A DNA stretch of 32,787 nt, taken from Candidatus Omnitrophota bacterium. Lineage in GTDB: Bacteria; Omnitrophota; Gorgyraeia; JABMRJ01. The stretch is taken from contig JADHWH010000018.1 in assembly GCA_016783555.1 (NCBI GenBank), positions 1 to 32,787 on the forward strand, in the 5' to 3' direction. The position numbers and the translations under genes were made by a program. Below are positions 1-6,830 of the stretch, in pieces. Within the stretch, counting starts at the first letter, position 1; the number at the start of each line of letters is the position of its first letter. Under the pieces are notes generated by a model. The model was not told the origin of the DNA. It saw only the letters and a program-made list of their open reading frames with translations, and did not search any database.

Positions 1-2
1 CA

Positions 3-266
3 AAACTGATAGAAGAAGTTAAAGAAAGGCCAAAAGAAACAAGAGAGACCCAATACCAAACACCGGATAAGAAAAAAGCGTATAAAAGCCCTGAGATTAC
101 CAAAGTAAAAATGCAGCCCGAACAGGCGGTGTTGAGCTGCTGTGCTAGGAACCTTGATAACAAGTTTTTACAGACCGCGAACGCAAACTACTGCAGCGAA
201 TATTGTTTCGGCAGACCTCCGTGCGTGCCTATACCAGGCAGATTTAGCTCCTCGGGCCTCTCATAG
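3..266 (+). CDS. RiPP precursor peptide 1 (5'-truncated)
   Basis: This frame is open from the window edge to a TAG at 264-266, giving at least 87 residues; the start lies outside the window. A Lys/Glu-rich N-terminal part leads to the block ITKVKMQPEQAVLSC (residues 32-46). The same block, with 11 of 15 residues identical, occurs in the small peptide at 1747. A Cys-rich tail follows, with Cys at residues 46, 47, 64, 68 and 74 and many Asn, Tyr, Pro and Ser. A conserved leader joined to an unrelated Cys-rich core is what a RiPP precursor looks like, and a radical SAM/SPASM gene begins 51 nt downstream. The part encoded by about 48-69 (TQYQTPD) resembles the CCAAACACCGG-type repeat also inserted at 5824-5871, so some of the leader may be repeat-derived. 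I infer precursor function from the context and the shared motif; the mature product is unknown. Confidence 0.7.
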   Translation, partial: KLIEEVKERPKETRETQYQTPDKKKAYKSPEITKVKMQPEQAVLSCCARNLDNKFLQTANANYCSEYCFGRPPCVPIPGRFSSSGLS

Positions 267-276
267 CCTAGTACGG

Positions 277-298
277 TTTGTTTATCTGGATAAACGAA
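277..298 (+). other. Small hairpin between precursor 1 and its radical SAM gene
   Basis: Positions 277-285 (TTTGTTTAT) and 290-298 (ATAAACGAA) form a 9-bp stem with one G-U pair and a CTGG loop. It sits in the 51-nt gap before the radical SAM gene at 318. No T-run follows, so it is not a classical terminator. It could be a processing or stabilising hairpin that lets precursor mRNA outnumber enzyme mRNA, as in other peptide clusters, but that is inference. Confidence 0.3.
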
Positions 299-317
299 AT
301 AACAATAGATTATAGAA

Positions 318-1397
318 ATGCGAAACGAGGAATATAAGGATTTTAGTTTGCGGGTCCACCTAAAAGGCACGAGAAAGCCGATTATGGGACAGTTTGAGCT
401 GACCCATCGCTGCAACCTGAAGTGTCAGCACTGCTATATTGTGAATGATTCGAGAAGGGAGGAGCTTACTTACAAGGAGTTATGCCATATTTTTGATGAG
501 GTCTACCAGGAAGGATGTCTATGGCTCTGTCTTACTGGTGGGGAGCCTTTGCTGCGGAAAGATTTTCTGGATATATACTCCTACGCCTACAAAAAAGGAT
601 TTATTATAACTATTTTTACTAATGCTACTTTTTTAAATGAGGAGATAGCGAAATACCTGAAGAGATTTCCTCCGTTTTGCATTGAGCTAACCTTAAACGG
701 CGTTACCAAAAAGAGTTACGAATTAATTACTCAAACACCGGGCTCGTTTGAGAAGGCGATGCGAGGTATTGAGCTCATCCGTAAACATAATCTCCCCCTA
801 AAACTAAAATGCCAGGCAATGACCTTAAACTTCGATGAGTTTCCTTTGATGCGAAGGTTCTATCAAGAAATGGGTATGGTGTTTCGTTGCAGTACATTAA
901 TCGACCCACGTATGGATGGTTCAACCGGACCCTGTTCTTTGCGTTTACCTGTAGAGAAGATATTGGAACTCGAAAGCCGCGAGGAAATAGTTAAAGGAAG
1001 GGATGAGATTGAAGATGGTTTTAAGGAAGAACCTCTGACTGAGCAAGAAAATGAGGTTTTGCCTCCTTCAGATGAACTCTTTCACTGCCCAGGAGGAACC
1101 TGGGCATTTTATATTAATCCTTTTGGGGAGCTCTACTTCTGTAACTCAGTAAGGAAGCCAACGTGGGATCTGCGCAGCCACTCGTTTAAACAAGGCTTTT
1201 ATGATTTCTTCCCAAAGATTCGCTCTCGTAAGTTCAAAACTGATTCTGAGTGCCGCACCTGTCCGCTTTGGCAAAGCTGTCTTCGCTGTCCGGGAAAAGC
1301 AGAGCTCGAATGCGGCGATGTGGAGGCACCGATACCGTATTACTGCGAGCTCGCCCATAAGCTGGAAGAGGCCGGAAAGGCCATTACCATTAGATGA
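318..1397 (+). CDS. Radical SAM/SPASM peptide-modifying enzyme 1
   Basis: The protein is 359 aa. The N-terminal region carries the radical SAM cluster motif, Cys32-x3-Cys36-x2-Cys39 (RCNLKCQHCY), followed by LTGGEPLLRKDF, typical of the SAM-binding glycine-rich strand. The C-terminus has a SPASM-type Cys array (C-x2-C-x5-C-x2-C, then a late Cys in PYYCELA) for auxiliary Fe-S clusters. SPASM enzymes commonly install thioether or C-C bonds in ribosomal peptides. The gene follows the Cys-rich precursor at 3-266 and precedes a PqqD-like gene, so that precursor is its likely substrate. It is paralogous to the genes at 2014, 3111 and 5104. The start is chosen because its first residues (MR-x3-YK-x-FSL) match those of the 5104 paralogue. 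There is no clear Shine-Dalgarno upstream. The reaction and substrate are inferred. Confidence 0.9.
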   Translation: MRNEEYKDFSLRVHLKGTRKPIMGQFELTHRCNLKCQHCYIVNDSRREELTYKELCHIFDEVYQEGCLWLCLTGGEPLLRKDFLDIYSYAYKKGFIITIFTNATFLNEEIAKYLKRFPPFCIELTLNGVTKKSYELITQTPGSFEKAMRGIELIRKHNLPLKLKCQAMTLNFDEFPLMRRFYQEMGMVFRCSTLIDPRMDGSTGPCSLRLPVEKILELESREEIVKGRDEIEDGFKEEPLTEQENEVLPPSDELFHCPGGTWAFYINPFGELYFCNSVRKPTWDLRSHSFKQGFYDFFPKIRSRKFKTDSECRTCPLWQSCLRCPGKAELECGDVEAPIPYYCELAHKLEEAGKAITIR

Positions 1398-1433
1398 TAA
1401 CTATATTGAGAAATCATAAGGAGGACTGTTCGA

Positions 1434-1715
1434 ATGGATAATAAAAAGGTTTTTAAGAGAAACCCTGATTTTGTAATGCGGGAAATCGATAAAGAGACCA
1501 TACTGGTCCCCGTAATAAAGACCTCGGAAGATATAAACTGTATATATACCTTGAATAAGGTCGGCTCTGAGGTTTGGAGACTAATTGATGGTAAAAATTC
1601 GCTGGAGAATATTAAAAGAAAAGTCCTGGAGAATTTTGACACTACCCCTAAAGAGGTGGAGAAGGAGATGAAAGGCTTTTTGAAAGACCTGGAAGAGATA
1701 AAGGCGATAAAATAA
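1434..1715 (+). CDS. PqqD-like RiPP recognition protein
   Basis: This 93-aa protein has the PqqD fold signature: NPDFVMREID, then TLNKVGSEVWRLIDG, then a helical C-terminus with ENIKRKVLENFD. Free-standing PqqD proteins bind the leader of a precursor peptide and present it to a radical SAM partner. A strong AAGGAGG lies at 1418-1424, 9 nt before the ATG. The gene lies between radical SAM enzyme 1 and precursor 2 and is the only such protein visible, so it probably serves all four radical SAM enzymes by binding the shared IT-K/R-VK-x-x-PEQAVL leader. The family call is secure; the exact partners are inference. Confidence 0.88.
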   Translation: MDNKKVFKRNPDFVMREIDKETILVPVIKTSEDINCIYTLNKVGSEVWRLIDGKNSLENIKRKVLENFDTTPKEVEKEMKGFLKDLEEIKAIK

Positions 1716-1746
1716 ACAGTTTGGCAGTTAAGCAAGGAGCAAGAAG

Positions 1747-1950
1747 ATGCCGAGAAAACCGAAATTCAGACCGAGGATAACAAGGGTAAAACTCAACCCT
1801 GAACAGGCGGTGTTGTTCTGCTCGTGTTCGACTCTGGGGTGGGGTAACAGCAGTACTTACGATCCATGGACGAAGAGACCGGTCTGCGTATTTTATCCTA
1901 AGCATACAATAAATATCAATAATTTTGTAAGTGGAGTCATCGCGTCTTAA
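1747..1950 (+). CDS. RiPP precursor peptide 2
   Basis: This is a complete 67-aa peptide. The N-terminus is very basic (MPRKPKFRPR) and is followed by ITRVKLNPEQAVLFC (residues 11-25), the block shared with precursor 1. The downstream core differs entirely: Cys25, Cys27 and Cys47, with many Ser, Thr, Asn, Trp, Tyr and Pro. The nucleotides GAACAGGCGGTGTTG are identical in both genes, which suggests duplication with core divergence. AAGGAG at 1734-1739 lies 7 nt before the ATG. The gene follows the PqqD-like gene and precedes radical SAM enzyme 2. Size, composition, shared leader and neighbours support a modified-peptide precursor. The cleavage site is not certain, although it could lie after PEQAVL. 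Confidence 0.8.
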   Translation: MPRKPKFRPRITRVKLNPEQAVLFCSCSTLGWGNSSTYDPWTKRPVCVFYPKHTININNFVSGVIAS

Positions 1951-2004
1951 GCCCTTTTGTATTTGGTCATTCGGACTTTTAAAGTTTAGAATTCGGGAGA
2001 ATTC
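1951..2004 (+). repeat. Degenerate dispersed-repeat relic with GAATTC hairpin
   Basis: The gap after precursor 2 contains TTTGTATTTGGTCATTCGG (1957-1975), which resembles a low-complexity repeat of the TTTGGTATTTGG kind seen in many environmental genomes. The reverse complement of 51-66 (CCGGTGTTTGGTATTG) is related. GAATTC at 1989-1994 and 1999-2004 forms a 6-bp hairpin with a GGGA loop just before the GTG start at 2014. The repeat assignment is from memory and not proven here. Confidence 0.3.
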
Positions 2005-2013
2005 CTGCAAGAA

Positions 2014-3108
2014 GTGAAGAACCAAAAGCCGGAACATTTTTACGACAGATTACACAATAGAAAAAAGCATTATCCTTGGGCTGGTCAGATAGAGCTAACT
2101 TACCGCTGCAATCTTAATTGCATCCATTGTTATTGTGAAGGGAGCGAAGATAAAAAAGCTAATAGAGAATTAAACACCGTTGAATGGAAGAAGATCCTTG
2201 ATACGATTCGGGAAGAAGGCTGTCTCTACCTCGCCTTGACCGGCGGAGAACCTTTAGTCAGAGATGATTTCTTAGACATCTACTCCTACGCCAAGAGAAG
2301 AGGTTTTATTATCACCATTTTTACAAATGGCCAGGGATTTACAAAAGAGATTATCGATTATTTAACTAAATCGCCTCCTTATTCTATAGAGATCACCTTA
2401 AACGGCATAACCAAAGATACCTATGAGTCAATTACTCAAACCCCGGATTCTTATTCCAGGGCTGTTAAGACTATCAAGATATTAGCTCAAGAAGAATTGC
2501 CGCTTGTATTAAAGACGAACTGCCTTAAACAGAATAGAGACGAACTCGGCGAGATTAAGAAGTGGACAGAAGAGCTTTTAGGCAAGCCCTCAAAAGATAC
2601 GCACTACTTTAAATATGACCCTATGATATATCCCAGGCTCAATGGAGATAAAACCCCGTGCAATTACAGGCTCTCTTTCGAGGAGCTGCAGGAAACAAAG
2701 AGCCAGGACCCGGATGTCTGGGAGGAGTACCAAAAGGGCCTGCATGCCGATCTTCCTGATTTAGGGAGGGATAGAGACTTTCTCTACCGCTGTAATAGCT
2801 GGATGACGCAGTTTTTTGTCAACCCCTATGGAAGATTGAAGTTTTGTGAGTTTTCAGAAAAATTCAGCGTCGATTTAAAGAGCACCCCTTTTAAAGAAGG
2901 CTTCTATAATTTCCCCAAACTCATGAATGAGAAATTCAAATCCAATTCTAAATGCAGGGGGTGCTCTTTAAGGTCAATCTGTTATTATTGTCCGGCCAGG
3001 GCCTATTTAGAGACAGGCGATGAAGAGGGGCCCGTAGAATATTATTGCGAATTAGCAAAAGCGACTAAAGAAGAGATGGAAGCTAAACTAGCGGCTTTGA
3101 GAATATAA
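2014..3108 (+). CDS. Radical SAM/SPASM peptide-modifying enzyme 2
   Basis: The protein is 364 aa with Cys32-x3-Cys36-x2-Cys39 (RCNLNCIHCY), LTGGEPLVRDDF for SAM binding, and a SPASM region (C-x2-C-x5-C-x2-C, then EYYCELA) near the end. It is clearly paralogous to the enzymes at 318 and 5104: all three share the DIYSYAK/FIITIF segment and an ITLN-type segment. The start is GTG; a weak AAGAAG precedes it, and no in-frame alternative fits the family N-terminus better. The gene follows precursor 2, so each precursor in the window is followed by a radical SAM enzyme. I infer that it modifies precursor 2. Confidence 0.9.
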   Translation: MKNQKPEHFYDRLHNRKKHYPWAGQIELTYRCNLNCIHCYCEGSEDKKANRELNTVEWKKILDTIREEGCLYLALTGGEPLVRDDFLDIYSYAKRRGFIITIFTNGQGFTKEIIDYLTKSPPYSIEITLNGITKDTYESITQTPDSYSRAVKTIKILAQEELPLVLKTNCLKQNRDELGEIKKWTEELLGKPSKDTHYFKYDPMIYPRLNGDKTPCNYRLSFEELQETKSQDPDVWEEYQKGLHADLPDLGRDRDFLYRCNSWMTQFFVNPYGRLKFCEFSEKFSVDLKSTPFKEGFYNFPKLMNEKFKSNSKCRGCSLRSICYYCPARAYLETGDEEGPVEYYCELAKATKEEMEAKLAALRI

Positions 3109-3110
3109 CA

Positions 3111-4178
3111 GTGAAAACACAATCTTATAATATTTTCTGGAACCAGATTCACAAGTCAGCAAAAGAGAAGCATATTCCCCTGCGGGTAATGTTTGAGTTG
3201 ACCTACCGCTGTAATTTTTACTGCAGACATTGCTATGTCCCTTTTAGTTACAGAAAACATAAGGAGCTCAAGACAAAAGAGATTTTCTCTATCTTAGACC
3301 AGCTTGCCGATATCGGCTGTTTTTATCTGGGCCTTACAGGCGGCGAGCCGTTTATGAGAAAAGATATGCTGGATATACTATTTTTTGCCAAAAGGAAGGG
3401 CTTTGAGGTCATTATTTATTCAAACGGCTCACTGATTGATGAAGAGATGGCTGAAGAGCTGGCGCGGCTTAGGCCGAACAAGGTAGATATCACTATTCCG
3501 GCGGTAAGCACCGACGCCTTTGAGCGCATTAGTGGTGTAGCAGGCTCCAGAGACAAGGTCTTTAAGGCCATTGAGTTTCTGTACGAAAAAAAAGTGAATT
3601 TGGGGTTTAAGAGCTGCGTGCTAAAAGAGAATGAAGGCGAGATTAAAGATATAGAGAGTTTCGCCAAATCCTTAGACGCTTTACATCGTTTGGATGATAT
3701 GCTTTTACCCTGCTTGAACGGCTCAAAGGAACCATATAAATATAGAGGACAGAGGACAGAAAACAGAGGACAGAAAACAGAGGACAGAAAACAGAGGACA
3801 GATGAAGATAGGCCTCAACTTTGTATCGCAGAAACTGCAAACCGCAGGCCTCCTACTTCAGACTTATTTAAATGCGGAGTGGGTGTAACCCAGGCGGCGA
3901 TTACCCCTTCCGGAGAGTTAAAGATGTGCCTGATGATAGATTACCCCAAATATAGAATACTTAACAGCTCTTTAGGGGATGTTTGGGGGGAGCTTAAAGG
4001 ATTAGTGAAGGGTATAAAACCGGATGAAGATTATCAGTGTGATAAGTGCGAGCTTAAAGCCTATTGCAAGCGGTGTCCTGCCAGAGGATGGATTTATAAC
4101 AAAAATTTTACTTCCTGTGATCCGGAGTCAAAGCACTATGCAGAAGGTTTAAGAGGACTTTGTGAGGTTAGGCCATGA
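3111..4178 (+). CDS. Radical SAM/SPASM enzyme 3 with repeat-expanded linker
   Basis: The protein is 355 aa, with Cys34-x3-Cys38-x2-Cys41 (RCNFYCRHCY), LTGGEPFMRKDM, and a C-terminal SPASM array (CDKCELKAYCKRCPAR, then a further Cys in FTSCDP). It is the most divergent of the four paralogues. The linker before the SPASM-proximal LFKCGVG segment is expanded by a tandem 14-nt DNA repeat (3744-3802) that encodes a charged Arg/Gln/Glu/Thr/Asp stretch. The GTG start lies 2 nt after the preceding stop, so translation is probably coupled. The end overlaps the next gene by ATGA (4175-4178). Unlike its paralogues, it ends in a non-canonical tail after the SPASM Cys, so it may act on a different substrate or at a different step. 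Confidence 0.88.
   Translation: MKTQSYNIFWNQIHKSAKEKHIPLRVMFELTYRCNFYCRHCYVPFSYRKHKELKTKEIFSILDQLADIGCFYLGLTGGEPFMRKDMLDILFFAKRKGFEVIIYSNGSLIDEEMAEELARLRPNKVDITIPAVSTDAFERISGVAGSRDKVFKAIEFLYEKKVNLGFKSCVLKENEGEIKDIESFAKSLDALHRLDDMLLPCLNGSKEPYKYRGQRTENRGQKTEDRKQRTDEDRPQLCIAETANRRPPTSDLFKCGVGVTQAAITPSGELKMCLMIDYPKYRILNSSLGDVWGELKGLVKGIKPDEDYQCDKCELKAYCKRCPARGWIYNKNFTSCDPESKHYAEGLRGLCEVRP
3744..3802 (+). repeat. Tandem 14-nt repeat inside radical SAM gene 3
   Basis: Three exact copies of AGAGGACAGAAAAC (3751-3764, 3765-3778, 3779-3792) are flanked by a 7-nt partial copy (3744-3750) and a 10-nt partial copy (3793-3802). Because 14 is not a multiple of three, the reading frame rotates through the unit, yet it stays open and codes for RGQRTENRGQKTEDRKQRTD. 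Confidence 0.92.
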
Positions 4179-5107
4179 ATAGCAGGATTAAATTAAAAAT
4201 CGCTGATATAATTACCAAGATGCAGAGTGATTTTGCGCTTGCGCAACTTAGCGAAGAAGAGAAGAAGCTGGAAGTCACCGAACGGTTCGATAATTTCTTC
4301 TATAACCAAGAGCGGAAGGAAGAGATCTCAATCAATGTAGAGATTGTAGATAGATTGCCCCAAATCAAAAAGACAAAACTCTCGTTTGTTACCTATCACC
4401 CTGAAGATGGAAGCGAAAATTGGCGCCTGCTTCAAAAAGGCGATACCTATATCTATAAAAGTCCGCTCGAAGACAAGAGACAGCTTATGCTGGTAAACAA
4501 GACCTTTGATAAAGTAACGGCCTACCTATTACCCAAAAAGGATAAAGGCCGGGTATGGGGTAGCACCGATATTATCTACGATTTCTTACAGGTTCTCATG
4601 ATAAACTATCTTGCCCAAAGGAGCGCAGGTATCTTTACCCACTCTATAGGTGTAAAAGACATAGACGGCAAGGGGCTTCTCTTTGCCGGTAAATCCGGCG
4701 CAGGCAAGACGACAACCGCCAAACTTTGGCATAACCAAAGCAGGGCGATGGTCTTAAACGACGACCGCATTATCGTGCGAAAACGAAACGGTGGATTTTT
4801 TATCCACGGTTGCCCCTGGCACGGAGAGTTCAGCGATTACCTTAACTCAAGGATAGAAGCGGCCCCTTTAAAAAAAATATTCTTTATTCACCATGCCCCG
4901 AAAAATACGGCAAGGCGGATTTCAGTAAAAACGGCATTTAAACTTCTCTATCCCGCGCTCTTTCCTCCTTTCTGGGATAAGGGGTGTTTAGAGAATGTCG
5001 TCTCTTTTAGCCAGGATTTAATCGAGAACGTCCCCTGTTACAGCTTAGGGTTTGTAAATGATAAAAAGATGATTGAGTTTGTGAGAAAGATAGAGACGAA
5101 CCTATGA
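4175..5107 (+). CDS. HprK-like P-loop kinase-fold protein of the RiPP cluster
   Basis: The protein is 310 aa. Its C-terminal half has a Walker A loop, GKSGAGKTT, at residues 172-180, followed by VLNDDRIIV (Asp196, Asp197) and the HGCPWHGE segment. This is the signature of the HPr kinase/phosphorylase-related fold found in peptide-biosynthesis clusters. The first 150 residues are not recognised. The start overlaps radical SAM gene 3 by ATGA, and its end overlaps radical SAM gene 4 by ATGA, so it is embedded in the operon. HprK-like proteins accompany PqqD and SPASM genes in the cassette that annotators named SynChlorMet (ScmC), and related proteins occur in lasso-peptide clusters. By analogy it may phosphorylate a peptide or a partner, but its substrate is unknown. 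Confidence 0.82.
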   Translation: MNSRIKLKIADIITKMQSDFALAQLSEEEKKLEVTERFDNFFYNQERKEEISINVEIVDRLPQIKKTKLSFVTYHPEDGSENWRLLQKGDTYIYKSPLEDKRQLMLVNKTFDKVTAYLLPKKDKGRVWGSTDIIYDFLQVLMINYLAQRSAGIFTHSIGVKDIDGKGLLFAGKSGAGKTTTAKLWHNQSRAMVLNDDRIIVRKRNGGFFIHGCPWHGEFSDYLNSRIEAAPLKKIFFIHHAPKNTARRISVKTAFKLLYPALFPPFWDKGCLENVVSFSQDLIENVPCYSLGFVNDKKMIEFVRKIETNL

Positions 5108-6189
5108 GAGAAATTCAATATAAGACCTTTAGCCTGAATACGCATAAAAAGAACTGGCAGCTTAAAAGACCTAATGTCTGTCAGTTTGAGCTGACGTTTA
5201 GATGCGGCCTGCGCTGTAACTATTGTTATTCAGACTGTTATAACAGGCCCGCTTATTTAAAGAAGGAGTTAAAGACTGATGAGGTAAAACATATCCTGGA
5301 TAAGGTCTATGATGCTGGGGTAATCTGGCTCTGTTTTACAGGCGGAGACCCTCTGACCCGAAAAGATTTTTTGGATATTTACTCCTACGCTAAAGAGAAG
5401 GGTTTTATTATAACCATATTTAGTAATTTAACTTCTCTGACTAAAAGAATAGTTGAGCACCTTAAGAAAAATCCCCCTTTTGTAATTGAGATAACATTAA
5501 ACGCAGCTACGCGCAATCTATATGAAAAGATAACGGGGGTAGAGGATTCGTTTGACAAAGTAATGCGTGGGATAGAGTCAGTTAAAAAAGCAAAATTACC
5601 CATGAAAATAAAGACACAGATAACGAAAGATAACCTGGCAGAGATACCCAAGATAAGAAGCTTCGTTAAAGGATTAGGATTAAAATTCAGCCCCAGTACC
5701 GATTTATATGCCCGATTAAACGGTGATTCAGCCCCATGTAATTTAAGGCTTTCGCCCCAAGAGATTTTAAGTTTAAATGGAAAAGGGCGAATATCGGATG
5801 ACGCCTGCGAGTTGTTGCGCGATACAAAACACCGGACCCCGAATACCAAGGCCCGAACACCAAACACCAGCTTATTCCGCTGCACTATCGGAGGCGGAGA
5901 CGGTTTTAATGTAGATCCTTACGGCCGCACCTTCCCGTGCGCGCTGATAAGAAAACCCGCCTTCAATCTCCTTAAGGTAAATATTGAATACGCATTAAAT
6001 GAACTATTGTCTCTGGTAAGAGAGAGAAGATTTACCGTTGATTCTAAATGCAGCGGCTGCGGCTTAAGAGAGTCTTGTCGTTGGTGTCCGGGCAGGGCAT
6101 ATGTTGAGAGAGGCGATATGGAAACGCCTGTGGAGTATTATTGCGAATTAGCAAACAAGACGGCACAAAGAGGAAGGATGCTATCATGA
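5104..6189 (+). CDS. Radical SAM/SPASM peptide-modifying enzyme 4
   Basis: The protein is 361 aa with Cys34-x3-Cys38-x2-Cys41 (RCGLRCNYCY). The SAM-binding strand reads FTGGDPLTRKDF, with Asp where the paralogues have Glu. The C-terminal SPASM Cys array is C-x2-C-x5-C-x2-C, then EYYCELA. It is closest to enzymes 1 and 2. The pre-SPASM linker carries a short imperfect 14-nt repeat (5824-5871) coding for KHRTPNTKARTPNTS. Start and stop both overlap neighbours by ATGA, giving tight translational coupling with the HprK-like gene upstream and the PHP gene downstream. No third precursor is visible next to it, so it could be a second modifying step on precursor 1 or 2. Confidence 0.9.
   Translation: MREIQYKTFSLNTHKKNWQLKRPNVCQFELTFRCGLRCNYCYSDCYNRPAYLKKELKTDEVKHILDKVYDAGVIWLCFTGGDPLTRKDFLDIYSYAKEKGFIITIFSNLTSLTKRIVEHLKKNPPFVIEITLNAATRNLYEKITGVEDSFDKVMRGIESVKKAKLPMKIKTQITKDNLAEIPKIRSFVKGLGLKFSPSTDLYARLNGDSAPCNLRLSPQEILSLNGKGRISDDACELLRDTKHRTPNTKARTPNTSLFRCTIGGGDGFNVDPYGRTFPCALIRKPAFNLLKVNIEYALNELLSLVRERRFTVDSKCSGCGLRESCRWCPGRAYVERGDMETPVEYYCELANKTAQRGRMLS
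5824..5871 (+). repeat. Imperfect 14-nt repeat inside radical SAM gene 4
   Basis: CCCGAATACCAAGG (5838-5851) and CCCGAACACCAAAC (5852-5865) are imperfect copies, preceded by a more diverged ACAAAACACCGGAC. It lies at the same domain boundary (before the LFxC segment) as the unrelated repeat in the 3111 gene, and it stays in frame. Confidence 0.7.
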
Positions 6190-6830
6190 TAGACCTGCAT
6201 ACCCATACACTTTTAAGCGACGGGGATCTTCTTCCGAGCGAACTTGTCAGGCGCGCAGCGGTCAAAGGATATGAGGCAATCGCTTTAACCGACCATTGCG
6301 ACTTCTCAAATATAGATTTTGTCCTTCCCCGCATAGTAAAGGTATCAAGGAACCTAAATTCGCACTGGCCGATTAAGGTTATCCCGGGTATGGAGATAAC
6401 ACACGTTCCGTTAAAGGAGATAAAGAATCTGATCAATTACGGGCGGCATAACGGCGCGAAGATAATCGTAGTGCACGGCGAGACCCTGTCAGAGCCCGTT
6501 ATTCCCGGCACCAACAGGGAGGCCATAAGATGTAAGGCTGATATAATAGCCCACCCCGGCCTCCTTACAGAAGAAGACGCAAATCTCGCTAAAGAAAACA
6601 GTATCTATATAGAGATAACCACAAGAGAAGCCCATCTCCAGACTAACCGGCATATAAGGGATATCGCGCGAAAGACGGGCGTTAAGCTTCTTTTAAATAC
6701 GGATACGCATGCCCCGGAAGATTTAATGGATGACGCCAAGGCGCAGGCATTTCTGGAGTCACTTGAGTTTACAAAAGACGAGATAGACAAGATCTTCCGG
6801 AATTCCAGAGTGATTGCAGGATTTTGTTAA
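6186..6830 (+). CDS. PHP-domain metal-dependent phosphatase/hydrolase
   Basis: The protein is 214 aa. The N-terminal DLHTHTLLSDG and ALTDHCD, the central VVHGE, then HPGLLT and the late NTDTHAPED supply the His/Asp/Glu metal ligands of the PHP family (histidinol-phosphatase-like). The start chosen is ATG 6186: AGGAAGG at 6171-6177 lies 8 nt upstream and the ATG overlaps the preceding stop as ATGA. An upstream in-frame ATG at 6141 would add 15 residues that are not PHP-like. The tight coupling puts it in the RiPP operon, although single-domain PHP proteins also occur elsewhere with unknown roles. It could dephosphorylate a product of the HprK-like kinase, but this is speculation; the substrate is not known. 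Confidence 0.85.
   Translation: MIDLHTHTLLSDGDLLPSELVRRAAVKGYEAIALTDHCDFSNIDFVLPRIVKVSRNLNSHWPIKVIPGMEITHVPLKEIKNLINYGRHNGAKIIVVHGETLSEPVIPGTNREAIRCKADIIAHPGLLTEEDANLAKENSIYIEITTREAHLQTNRHIRDIARKTGVKLLLNTDTHAPEDLMDDAKAQAFLESLEFTKDEIDKIFRNSRVIAGFC

Follow-up and report, generated by a model that had tools for sequence, protein, structure and literature searches.

What do the genes at the left end of this stretch of DNA make together? The window, by which we mean the whole stretch of 32,787 nucleotides analysed, is contig JADHWH010000018.1 of the Candidatus Omnitrophota bacterium assembly GCA_016783555.1, and it opens with a block of genes for radical S-adenosylmethionine (SAM) enzymes, a PqqD-like protein, an HprK-like protein and small Cys-rich peptides. 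The contig (C19) is part of a 1.77-Mb genome of 78 contigs (G000), which we compared with sampled relatives from the Omnitrophota; L-numbers denote the genomic stretches compared and G-numbers the genomes. We conclude, with a probability of about 0.6, that the block belongs to a system for ribosomally synthesized and post-translationally modified peptides (RiPPs) in which radical SAM modification is combined with probable phosphorylation of the peptide's C terminus, a reading whose gene kit and domain fusion are observed and whose chemical steps are inferred.

How far does the locus reach? The window's left edge is a contig end, and the reverse complement of contig C9 (stretch L006) ends in the window's first 139 bases, an exact overlap. 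This 139-mer is present solely at the C19 and C9 ends; the next match is 85% identical and lies in a paralogous fusion gene inside C9. Contig C9 contributes a complete fusion of a RiPP recognition element (RRE) to a precursor, along with three radical SAM/SPASM genes and one gene each for an S26 peptidase and an HprK-like protein. Once joined, the locus has seven radical SAM enzymes, two HprK-like proteins and three precursors. In joined order its genes are:

L006 5667-5233: S26-type peptidase
L006 5260-4166: radical SAM enzyme rA
L006 4131-3589: RRE-precursor fusion 1, 180 amino acids
L006 3578-2451: radical SAM enzyme rB
L006 2550-1537: HprK-like protein 1
L006 1540-458: radical SAM enzyme rC
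L006 ~413 down to 1 (-), continuing at window 1..266 (+): RRE-precursor fusion 2, 179 amino acids, with the RRE on L006 and the C-terminal 87 amino acids in the window
Window 318..1397 (+): radical SAM/SPASM enzyme rD (PF04055, 69.6 bits; CX3CX2C and SPASM cysteines; placed in the enzyme tree with a Shimodaira-Hasegawa-like approximate likelihood ratio test, SH-aLRT, value of 96)
Window 1434..1715 (+): discrete PqqD-like RRE of set 2 (PF05402, E = 6.7e-12, 46 bits, gathering score 23.4)
Window 1747..1950 (+): stand-alone precursor 3 (leader profile E = 6.9e-15; relatives adjoin PqqD and radical SAM genes)
Window 2014..3108 (+): radical SAM/SPASM enzyme rE, subfamily E1 by tree (PF04055, 77.6 bits)
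Window 3111..4178 (+): radical SAM/SPASM enzyme rF, subfamily E2 by tree (PF04055, 92.3 bits)
Window 4175..5107 (+): HprK-like protein 2, the peptide kinase candidate (14-member alignment, predicted structure and Foldseek)
Window 5104..6189 (+): radical SAM/SPASM enzyme rG, subfamily E3 by tree (PF04055, 76.7 bits)

Set 1, from C9 to window position 1397, has the order S26, radical SAM, [RRE-precursor], radical SAM, HprK-like, radical SAM, [RRE-precursor], radical SAM. Set 2 (window 1434-6189) has the canonical order RRE, precursor, E1, E2, HprK-like kinase, E3. Since the subfamilies of rE, rF and rG recur in fixed order in relatives, and rA to rD group with them in the enzyme tree, we read the locus as a tandem pair of RiPP gene sets from a single family and not as one set with four interchangeable enzymes. 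A sequence-only reading of the window had listed four SPASM enzymes, a PqqD-like protein, an HprK-like protein and two leader-bearing peptides, and every one of them is present where that reading had put it. The two precursors and four enzymes are real genes, but they are half the locus; the first precursor, described as a Cys-rich peptide with the shared leader, does have that leader and core but is the end of a 179-amino-acid RRE-leader-core fusion.

The precursors combine a conserved leader with a variable core, as RiPP precursors do. The C-terminal 87 amino acids of fusion 2 consist of a linker, the leader KSPEITKVKMQPEQAVL and the core SCCARNLDNKFLQTANANYCSEYCFGRPPCVPIPGRFSSSGLS, while the stand-alone precursor has the leader MPRKPKFRPRITRVKLNPEQAVL and a 44-amino-acid core with 3 Cys and a Ser at its end. 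The leader consensus is PxITR[IV]KLNPEQAVLSC, and many leaders of the family read [YWF]xxP. Cores are mostly 30-80 amino acids long and hypervariable, often with several to more than 20 per genome. A PqqD-like RRE (PF05402 above the gathering score) is encoded with the precursor and modifying enzymes, the hallmark of RRE-dependent RiPPs. Among 106 distinct cores the last residue was Ser in 90 and Thr in 9 (99/106 Ser or Thr, in a tally that ignores relatedness among precursors), compared with Ser at the end of 7% of large open reading frames (ORFs) at precursor-bearing loci. The penultimate position was likewise mostly Ser (61 of the 106), and most of the 7 exceptions to the Ser/Thr end have cores shortened to 12-20 residues, possibly as broken copies.

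Which enzyme might act on these ends? In an alignment of 14 HprK-like family members, His156, Lys178, Asp196 and Asp197 were invariant, and a His-Lys-Asp-Asp (HKDD) motif has been reported for lasso-peptide kinases that act on a C-terminal Ser (PMC9266682). As searching PDB sequences with the HprK profile returned mostly P-loop background, we used structure prediction instead. The AlphaFold2 (AF2) model (predicted local distance difference test, pLDDT, 89) matched phosphoenolpyruvate carboxykinase (PEPCK; E = 1.1e-7) and HPr kinase 1kkl (E = 1.9e-5) in Foldseek, two proteins with a common fold. In two relatives a radical SAM/SPASM part (N-terminal) and an HprK-like part (C-terminal) form one protein (L047 2009-3967 and L056 13191-14969, both on the minus strand), and such single chains probably exist in several further genomes; open frames of 592-717 amino acids hint at the same fusion in about ten genomes of the phylum. 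Given the invariant HKDD residues, the Ser-biased core ends and these single chains, the leading inference from sequence is that the HprK-like protein probably phosphorylates the C-terminal Ser. The alternative class of site would be the start of the core, by analogy with Ser3 of linear polyphosphorylated peptides (LPPs).

A kinase is not the sole way to account for these genes. The cluster could be a radical SAM RiPP cluster of sactipeptide or ranthipeptide type whose HprK-like protein does something other than phosphorylate the peptide (a regulator, for example), with the C-terminal Ser serving recognition or another modification. Sequence comparison with solved structures puts the SPASM enzymes nearest to SkfB, PqqE, the 5wgg radical SAM protein and 5v1q. 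In daptides an invariant C-terminal Thr is oxidatively decarboxylated (PMC10036551), a precedent for a constant last residue that signals a different modification. With HKDD invariant, radical SAM and HprK-like parts joined in single chains, and the remaining kit of LPP and paeninodin-type pathways co-occurring, we regard this explanation as unlikely, although it survives best of those we weighed.

The RRE-precursor fusion is the second unusual feature of the family. What was seen as an ORF at window 3-266 is the tail of one longer ORF, which has an N-terminal PqqD-like RRE (PF05402, 50.2 bits in fusion 2), a linker, a leader and a Cys-rich core. Both fusions have a plausible ribosome-binding site (RBS) before the RRE, and an RBS-like AAAGGAG precedes the ATG of the joined fusion 2 frame. 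Fusions 1 and 2 are paralogues, 77% identical over the first 133 amino acids. Nonsynonymous divergence (dN) between them is 0.08 for RRE plus leader (synonymous divergence, dS, 0.76 or saturated), 0.75 for the linker and ~1.0 for the core: purifying selection acts on RRE plus leader and the core varies freely, all in one reading frame. Related fusions occur in L117 and L102 (the L117 protein shares 57% identity with fusion 1 and 50% with that of L102), and a separate lineage of fusions occurs in JAHJHM01 (L083 868-1623, L095 2309-3148 and L113 3514-4236). In the JAHJHM01 fusions a low-complexity RERERE-type insert interrupts the RRE before helix 3, with the frame intact. RRE and precursor are separate neighbouring genes in G150 (L041), pointing to an origin of the fusion by the joining of two adjacent genes.

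That same G150 arrangement, together with an internal ATG at codon 102 of fusion 1, would suit a simpler account in which the apparent fusions are adjacent genes sharing one frame, the precursor being made, in addition or exclusively, from an internal start. However, a stop-free frame is maintained in four related proteins, and no conserved internal start lies ahead of the leader; the ATG that they share is inside the leader and has no obvious RBS. We therefore consider separate translation improbable and treat the proteins as true fusions.

Known RREs are separate proteins, or domains of enzymes and peptidases, and we found no report in the literature searched (open-licence papers) of an RRE fused ahead of its own leader and core. 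When the L117 fusion was modelled with AlphaFold, the RRE came out with confidence, residues 126-131 (EIAKVK; block pLDDT 90) formed a leader strand and the core was disordered; the best PDB matches in Foldseek were structures of the lasso RRE TbiB1 solved with leader peptides (TMt 0.83-0.85). Since DSSP calls a strand only where it is paired, the leader is predicted to dock onto the RRE within the same chain. In a 2025 survey of RREs, 21% of PF05402 proteins exceeded the size of a discrete RRE without other annotation (PMC12710340), and RRE-precursor fusions could hide in this oversized group.

The radical SAM enzymes keep the cysteine motifs of SPASM peptide maturases. All four radical SAM ORFs in the window are complete (Pfam Radical_SAM, 70-92 bits, each with CX3CX2C) and carry a SPASM-type C-X17/18-C...CX2CX5CX2C tail. 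The radical SAM and SPASM cysteines are kept in all seven G000 enzymes and, across the family, CX3CX2C is present in 71/71 enzymes and the SPASM core in 68/71. A tree of these 71 enzymes placed rE, rF and rG in three subfamilies (E1, E2 and E3), rA as sister to E1, rB and rC in the E2 half, and rD in an 18-row set that includes E3. With B for RRE, A for precursor, E for radical SAM and K for HprK-like kinase, the order RRE-A-E1-E2-K-E3 recurs in other Omnitrophota and in Elusimicrobia; canonical B-A-E-E-K-E is repeated in L061, L109 and L120, with near-identical orders in L110 and L122. RBG_13_41_10 (L117) independently mirrors the order of set 1 (E-[BA]-E-K-E), and its orthologues of rA and rB are 73% and 71% identical. 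In rF, a 14-bp satellite (ACAGAGGACAGAAA, 4 copies) lies in frame at window 3744-3802, in the linker between radical SAM core and SPASM domain; the array recurs on four more G000 contigs (C31, C6, C50 and C71), and rG has a different low-complexity insert at the equivalent position (~5821-5872).

Is the locus then a member of the SynChlorMet cassette, which combines an HprK-like protein (ScmC), a PqqD-like protein (ScmD) and SPASM proteins (ScmE/ScmF)? The sequence-only reading had seen shared parts and stopped short of that name, rightly in our view. The same four kinds of protein are present and the ScmC, ScmD, ScmE and ScmF models do match, but with scores far under the equivalog cutoffs (30.9/125, 32.4/100, <=103/400 and <=89/400) and not as the best matches for the SPASM proteins, so that membership is very unlikely. 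A redox-cofactor pathway like those for PQQ or mycofactocin, the peptide being a scaffold degraded to a small cofactor, is hardly credible: PqqD-like and PqqE-like parts are there, and the matches of the SPASM proteins include models for mycofactocin and PqqE, but the cores are hypervariable and often multiple per genome where a cofactor precursor would be expected to be conserved.

How widespread is the family? The proposal of an unnamed RiPP cluster with the leader ITxVKxxPEQAVLxC is well supported, and the recurrence of that leader shows that it is no chance match. The exact pattern K-x-x-PEQAVLxC, searched in named genomes, gave 63 stretches, mostly from Omnitrophota, with others from Elusimicrobia, WOR-3, Saganbacteria and NPL-UPA2/Psychracetigena (the NPL-UPA2 and Psychracetigena precursor sequences are identical); outside Omnitrophota its occurrence, in Elusimicrobia, WOR-3 and Saganbacteria, is sporadic. 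A leader profile searched in 384 genomes of the phylum matched 32. An HprK-like gene was found in 29/32 leader-positive versus 71/352 other genomes (Fisher p ~1e-15) and an RRE match in 29/32 versus 57/352, both counts taken without regard to relatedness.

Leader peptides with no radical SAM neighbours had been named as the observation that would speak against a cluster of this kind, and taken literally they exist. Family enzymes lie within <=8 kb in 35/63 stretches, 26 have precursors only and 2 are chance-like, and three genomes rich in precursors account for 22 of the 26 precursor-only stretches. The largest of the three, STF1_137 (G209), carries at least 22 precursors scattered over many contigs, most without nearby enzymes (L055, L079, L114, L118 and L119), and its contig C80 holds an enzyme locus made up of kinase, RRE and radical SAM genes; STB_176 also has an enzyme locus (L098). 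Because enzyme loci exist elsewhere in these two genomes, the precursor-only loci look like cases of processing in trans and not a refutation. Pattern matches in Methanoperedens (L092) and Sulfitobacter (L108), with no family genes in 8 kb, were treated as chance, as was a match on C38, which is antisense inside a ROK-type gene.

The transporter and protease had been reported as out of view. Neither is in the window's block, but a candidate peptidase lies on the adjoining C9 and an exporter candidate elsewhere in the genome. The S26 protein most resembles signal peptidases of the archaeal type (sigpep_I_arch, 39.3 bits, cutoff 51.85), with Ser/His/Asp positions kept in most relatives. It is fused to a nucleoside triphosphate (NTP) transferase domain, NTP_transf_5 (PF14907), in five relatives (L048, L050, L052, L054 and L059), and in L058 the PF14907 protein also matches the S26 profile. 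On G000 contig C62 (L127 7658-12832) a PF14907 NTP transferase adjoins an MsbA-like ATP-binding cassette (ABC) gene and two glycosyltransferase-like genes, the latter named from reading their sequences; this row is a candidate second locus for the pathway. Beside related clusters, S26-like domains are also fused to NTP_transf_5 and/or a methyltransferase or GNAT acetyltransferase (L052 5346-7667, L054 12740-14635 and L057 4919-5872), possibly for further tailoring. Where the peptidase might cut is a weak prediction: [SAT] follows PEQAVL, as a strict signal-peptidase site rule would have it, in 96/106 cores, and the window's own stand-alone precursor breaks the rule.

From these parts, a route can be proposed. 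In set 1, where RRE, leader and core share a chain, the leader segment P-x-I-x-[KR]-V-K would form a beta strand paired in cis with the RRE; in set 2 the pairing would be in trans. SPASM enzymes of the three subfamilies would then modify the Cys-rich core by radical chemistry, most likely forming thioether or other cross-links, and the HprK-like enzyme would phosphorylate the C-terminal Ser (or Thr). The archaeal-type S26 peptidase would cleave near PEQAVL, and the ABC exporter would move the product out, perhaps after action of the NTP transferase. At slightly less than even odds, we propose that this is a new RiPP class, of radical SAM-modified peptides (poly)phosphorylated at a C-terminal Ser, in which some precursors bring their own RRE, the leader is recognized within the molecule and a single chain goes from enzyme to enzyme.

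Several points weigh against this scheme. HMMER matches of the HprK-like protein to HPr kinase models were weak and below cutoff, and the target of the LPP kinase is an internal Ser (S3), Thr not being accepted (PMC13381572), so the site here could differ. One G000 core has Thr at its end, and the Ser tally shares the blindness to relatedness given above. No kinase was detected in 3/32 leader-positive genomes (drafts), yet the precursors of G113 and G146 end in Ser. The model of the fusion was built on 5 sequences, with a mean pLDDT of 69 for the best model and lower values for the others, and the strand pairing of leader and RRE was taken from DSSP, not from coordinates. The residue after PEQAVL in the window's stand-alone precursor is Phe, unfit for a simple signal-peptidase site, and it is analogy that would tie the exporter/NTP-transferase pair to the radical SAM locus.

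The locus is flanked by two further genes:

L006, ahead of the S26 peptidase gene in joined order: adenine phosphoribosyltransferase gene
Window 6186..6830 (+): PHP-domain phosphoesterase (NF004981, 265.7 bits, cutoff 117)

The PHP gene overlaps the rG stop codon by 4 nt, which would allow translational coupling. As no homologue was found among the ORFs of 83 related loci, the phosphoesterase is probably outside the system. Promoter and terminator scans gave signal no higher than in shuffles.

What would such a system add? Its clusters combine two chemistries known separately, radical SAM modification of peptides and HprK-type phosphorylation of Ser, and they yield a concrete prediction, a phosphorylated last Ser, which can be checked by mass spectrometry. 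If the RRE acts in cis, the fusions would offer a single-component substrate with which to study the way SPASM enzymes take up a complex of leader and RRE. RRE-fused precursors would escape a published mining pipeline in which any ORF with an RRE is dropped as a precursor candidate (PMC10036551). The uncultivated Omnitrophota hold a sizeable unexplored peptide repertoire, one genome alone having at least 22 precursors.

How does the system compare with those already known? Our literature search, again of open-licence papers, found none on SynChlorMet and none on radical SAM enzymes with HprK in RiPPs. SynChlorMet (ScmC-ScmF) likewise brings PqqD-like, HprK-like and SPASM proteins together, but has two modelled SPASM subfamilies (ScmE and ScmF) where the Omnitrophota sets have three. 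Sactipeptide and ranthipeptide systems (SkfB, AlbA, PapB) share SPASM maturases and Cys-rich cores, whereas the Omnitrophota sets add a kinase, an S26 peptidase and a partly precursor-fused RRE; scores stayed below the NCBIfam equivalog cutoffs for AlbA, SkfB, PapB and CbpB. Proteusin NHLP and split-borosin BBD precursors also carry a folded domain in the precursor chain, a leader domain that the enzyme recognises (PMC12455567, PMC8429565), but the Omnitrophota fusion places the peptide-binding RRE itself before its own short ligand.

Paeninodin-type lasso peptides (PadeK, ThcoK, PsmK/PsmN) have an HKDD HprK-like kinase, a C-terminal Ser and an RRE, and the pseudomycoidin cluster also has an NTP transferase. 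The Omnitrophota sets have radical SAM/SPASM enzymes, and no macrolactam cyclase or B2 peptidase was noticed among the ORFs of the G000 locus, lasso-specific models not having been searched genome-wide or in relatives. The LPP kit, described in 2026 mainly from Bacillota, comprises an SpI/S26-like peptidase, a discrete RRE, an HprK-like kinase, an NTP transferase and an MsbA-like exporter (PMC13381572). The same five parts are present in G000, spread over two loci (C9/C19 and C62); the [Y/W]xxP-type RRE motif of LPP leaders has a counterpart in the [YWF]xxP of many Omnitrophota leaders, and both systems pair a conserved leader with a variable core. The two differ in that radical SAM enzymes belong to the Omnitrophota sets and none is mentioned for LPPs (PMC13381572), in that the LPP phosphosite is core Ser3 where the Omnitrophota site, judged from sequence, would be the C terminus, and in that the Omnitrophota leader does not match the LPP precursor motif YxxPxVLxHQxIxFETxxS. 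By this comparison the Omnitrophota system would be a hybrid, making phosphopeptides in the LPP/paeninodin manner and maturing them with SPASM enzymes.

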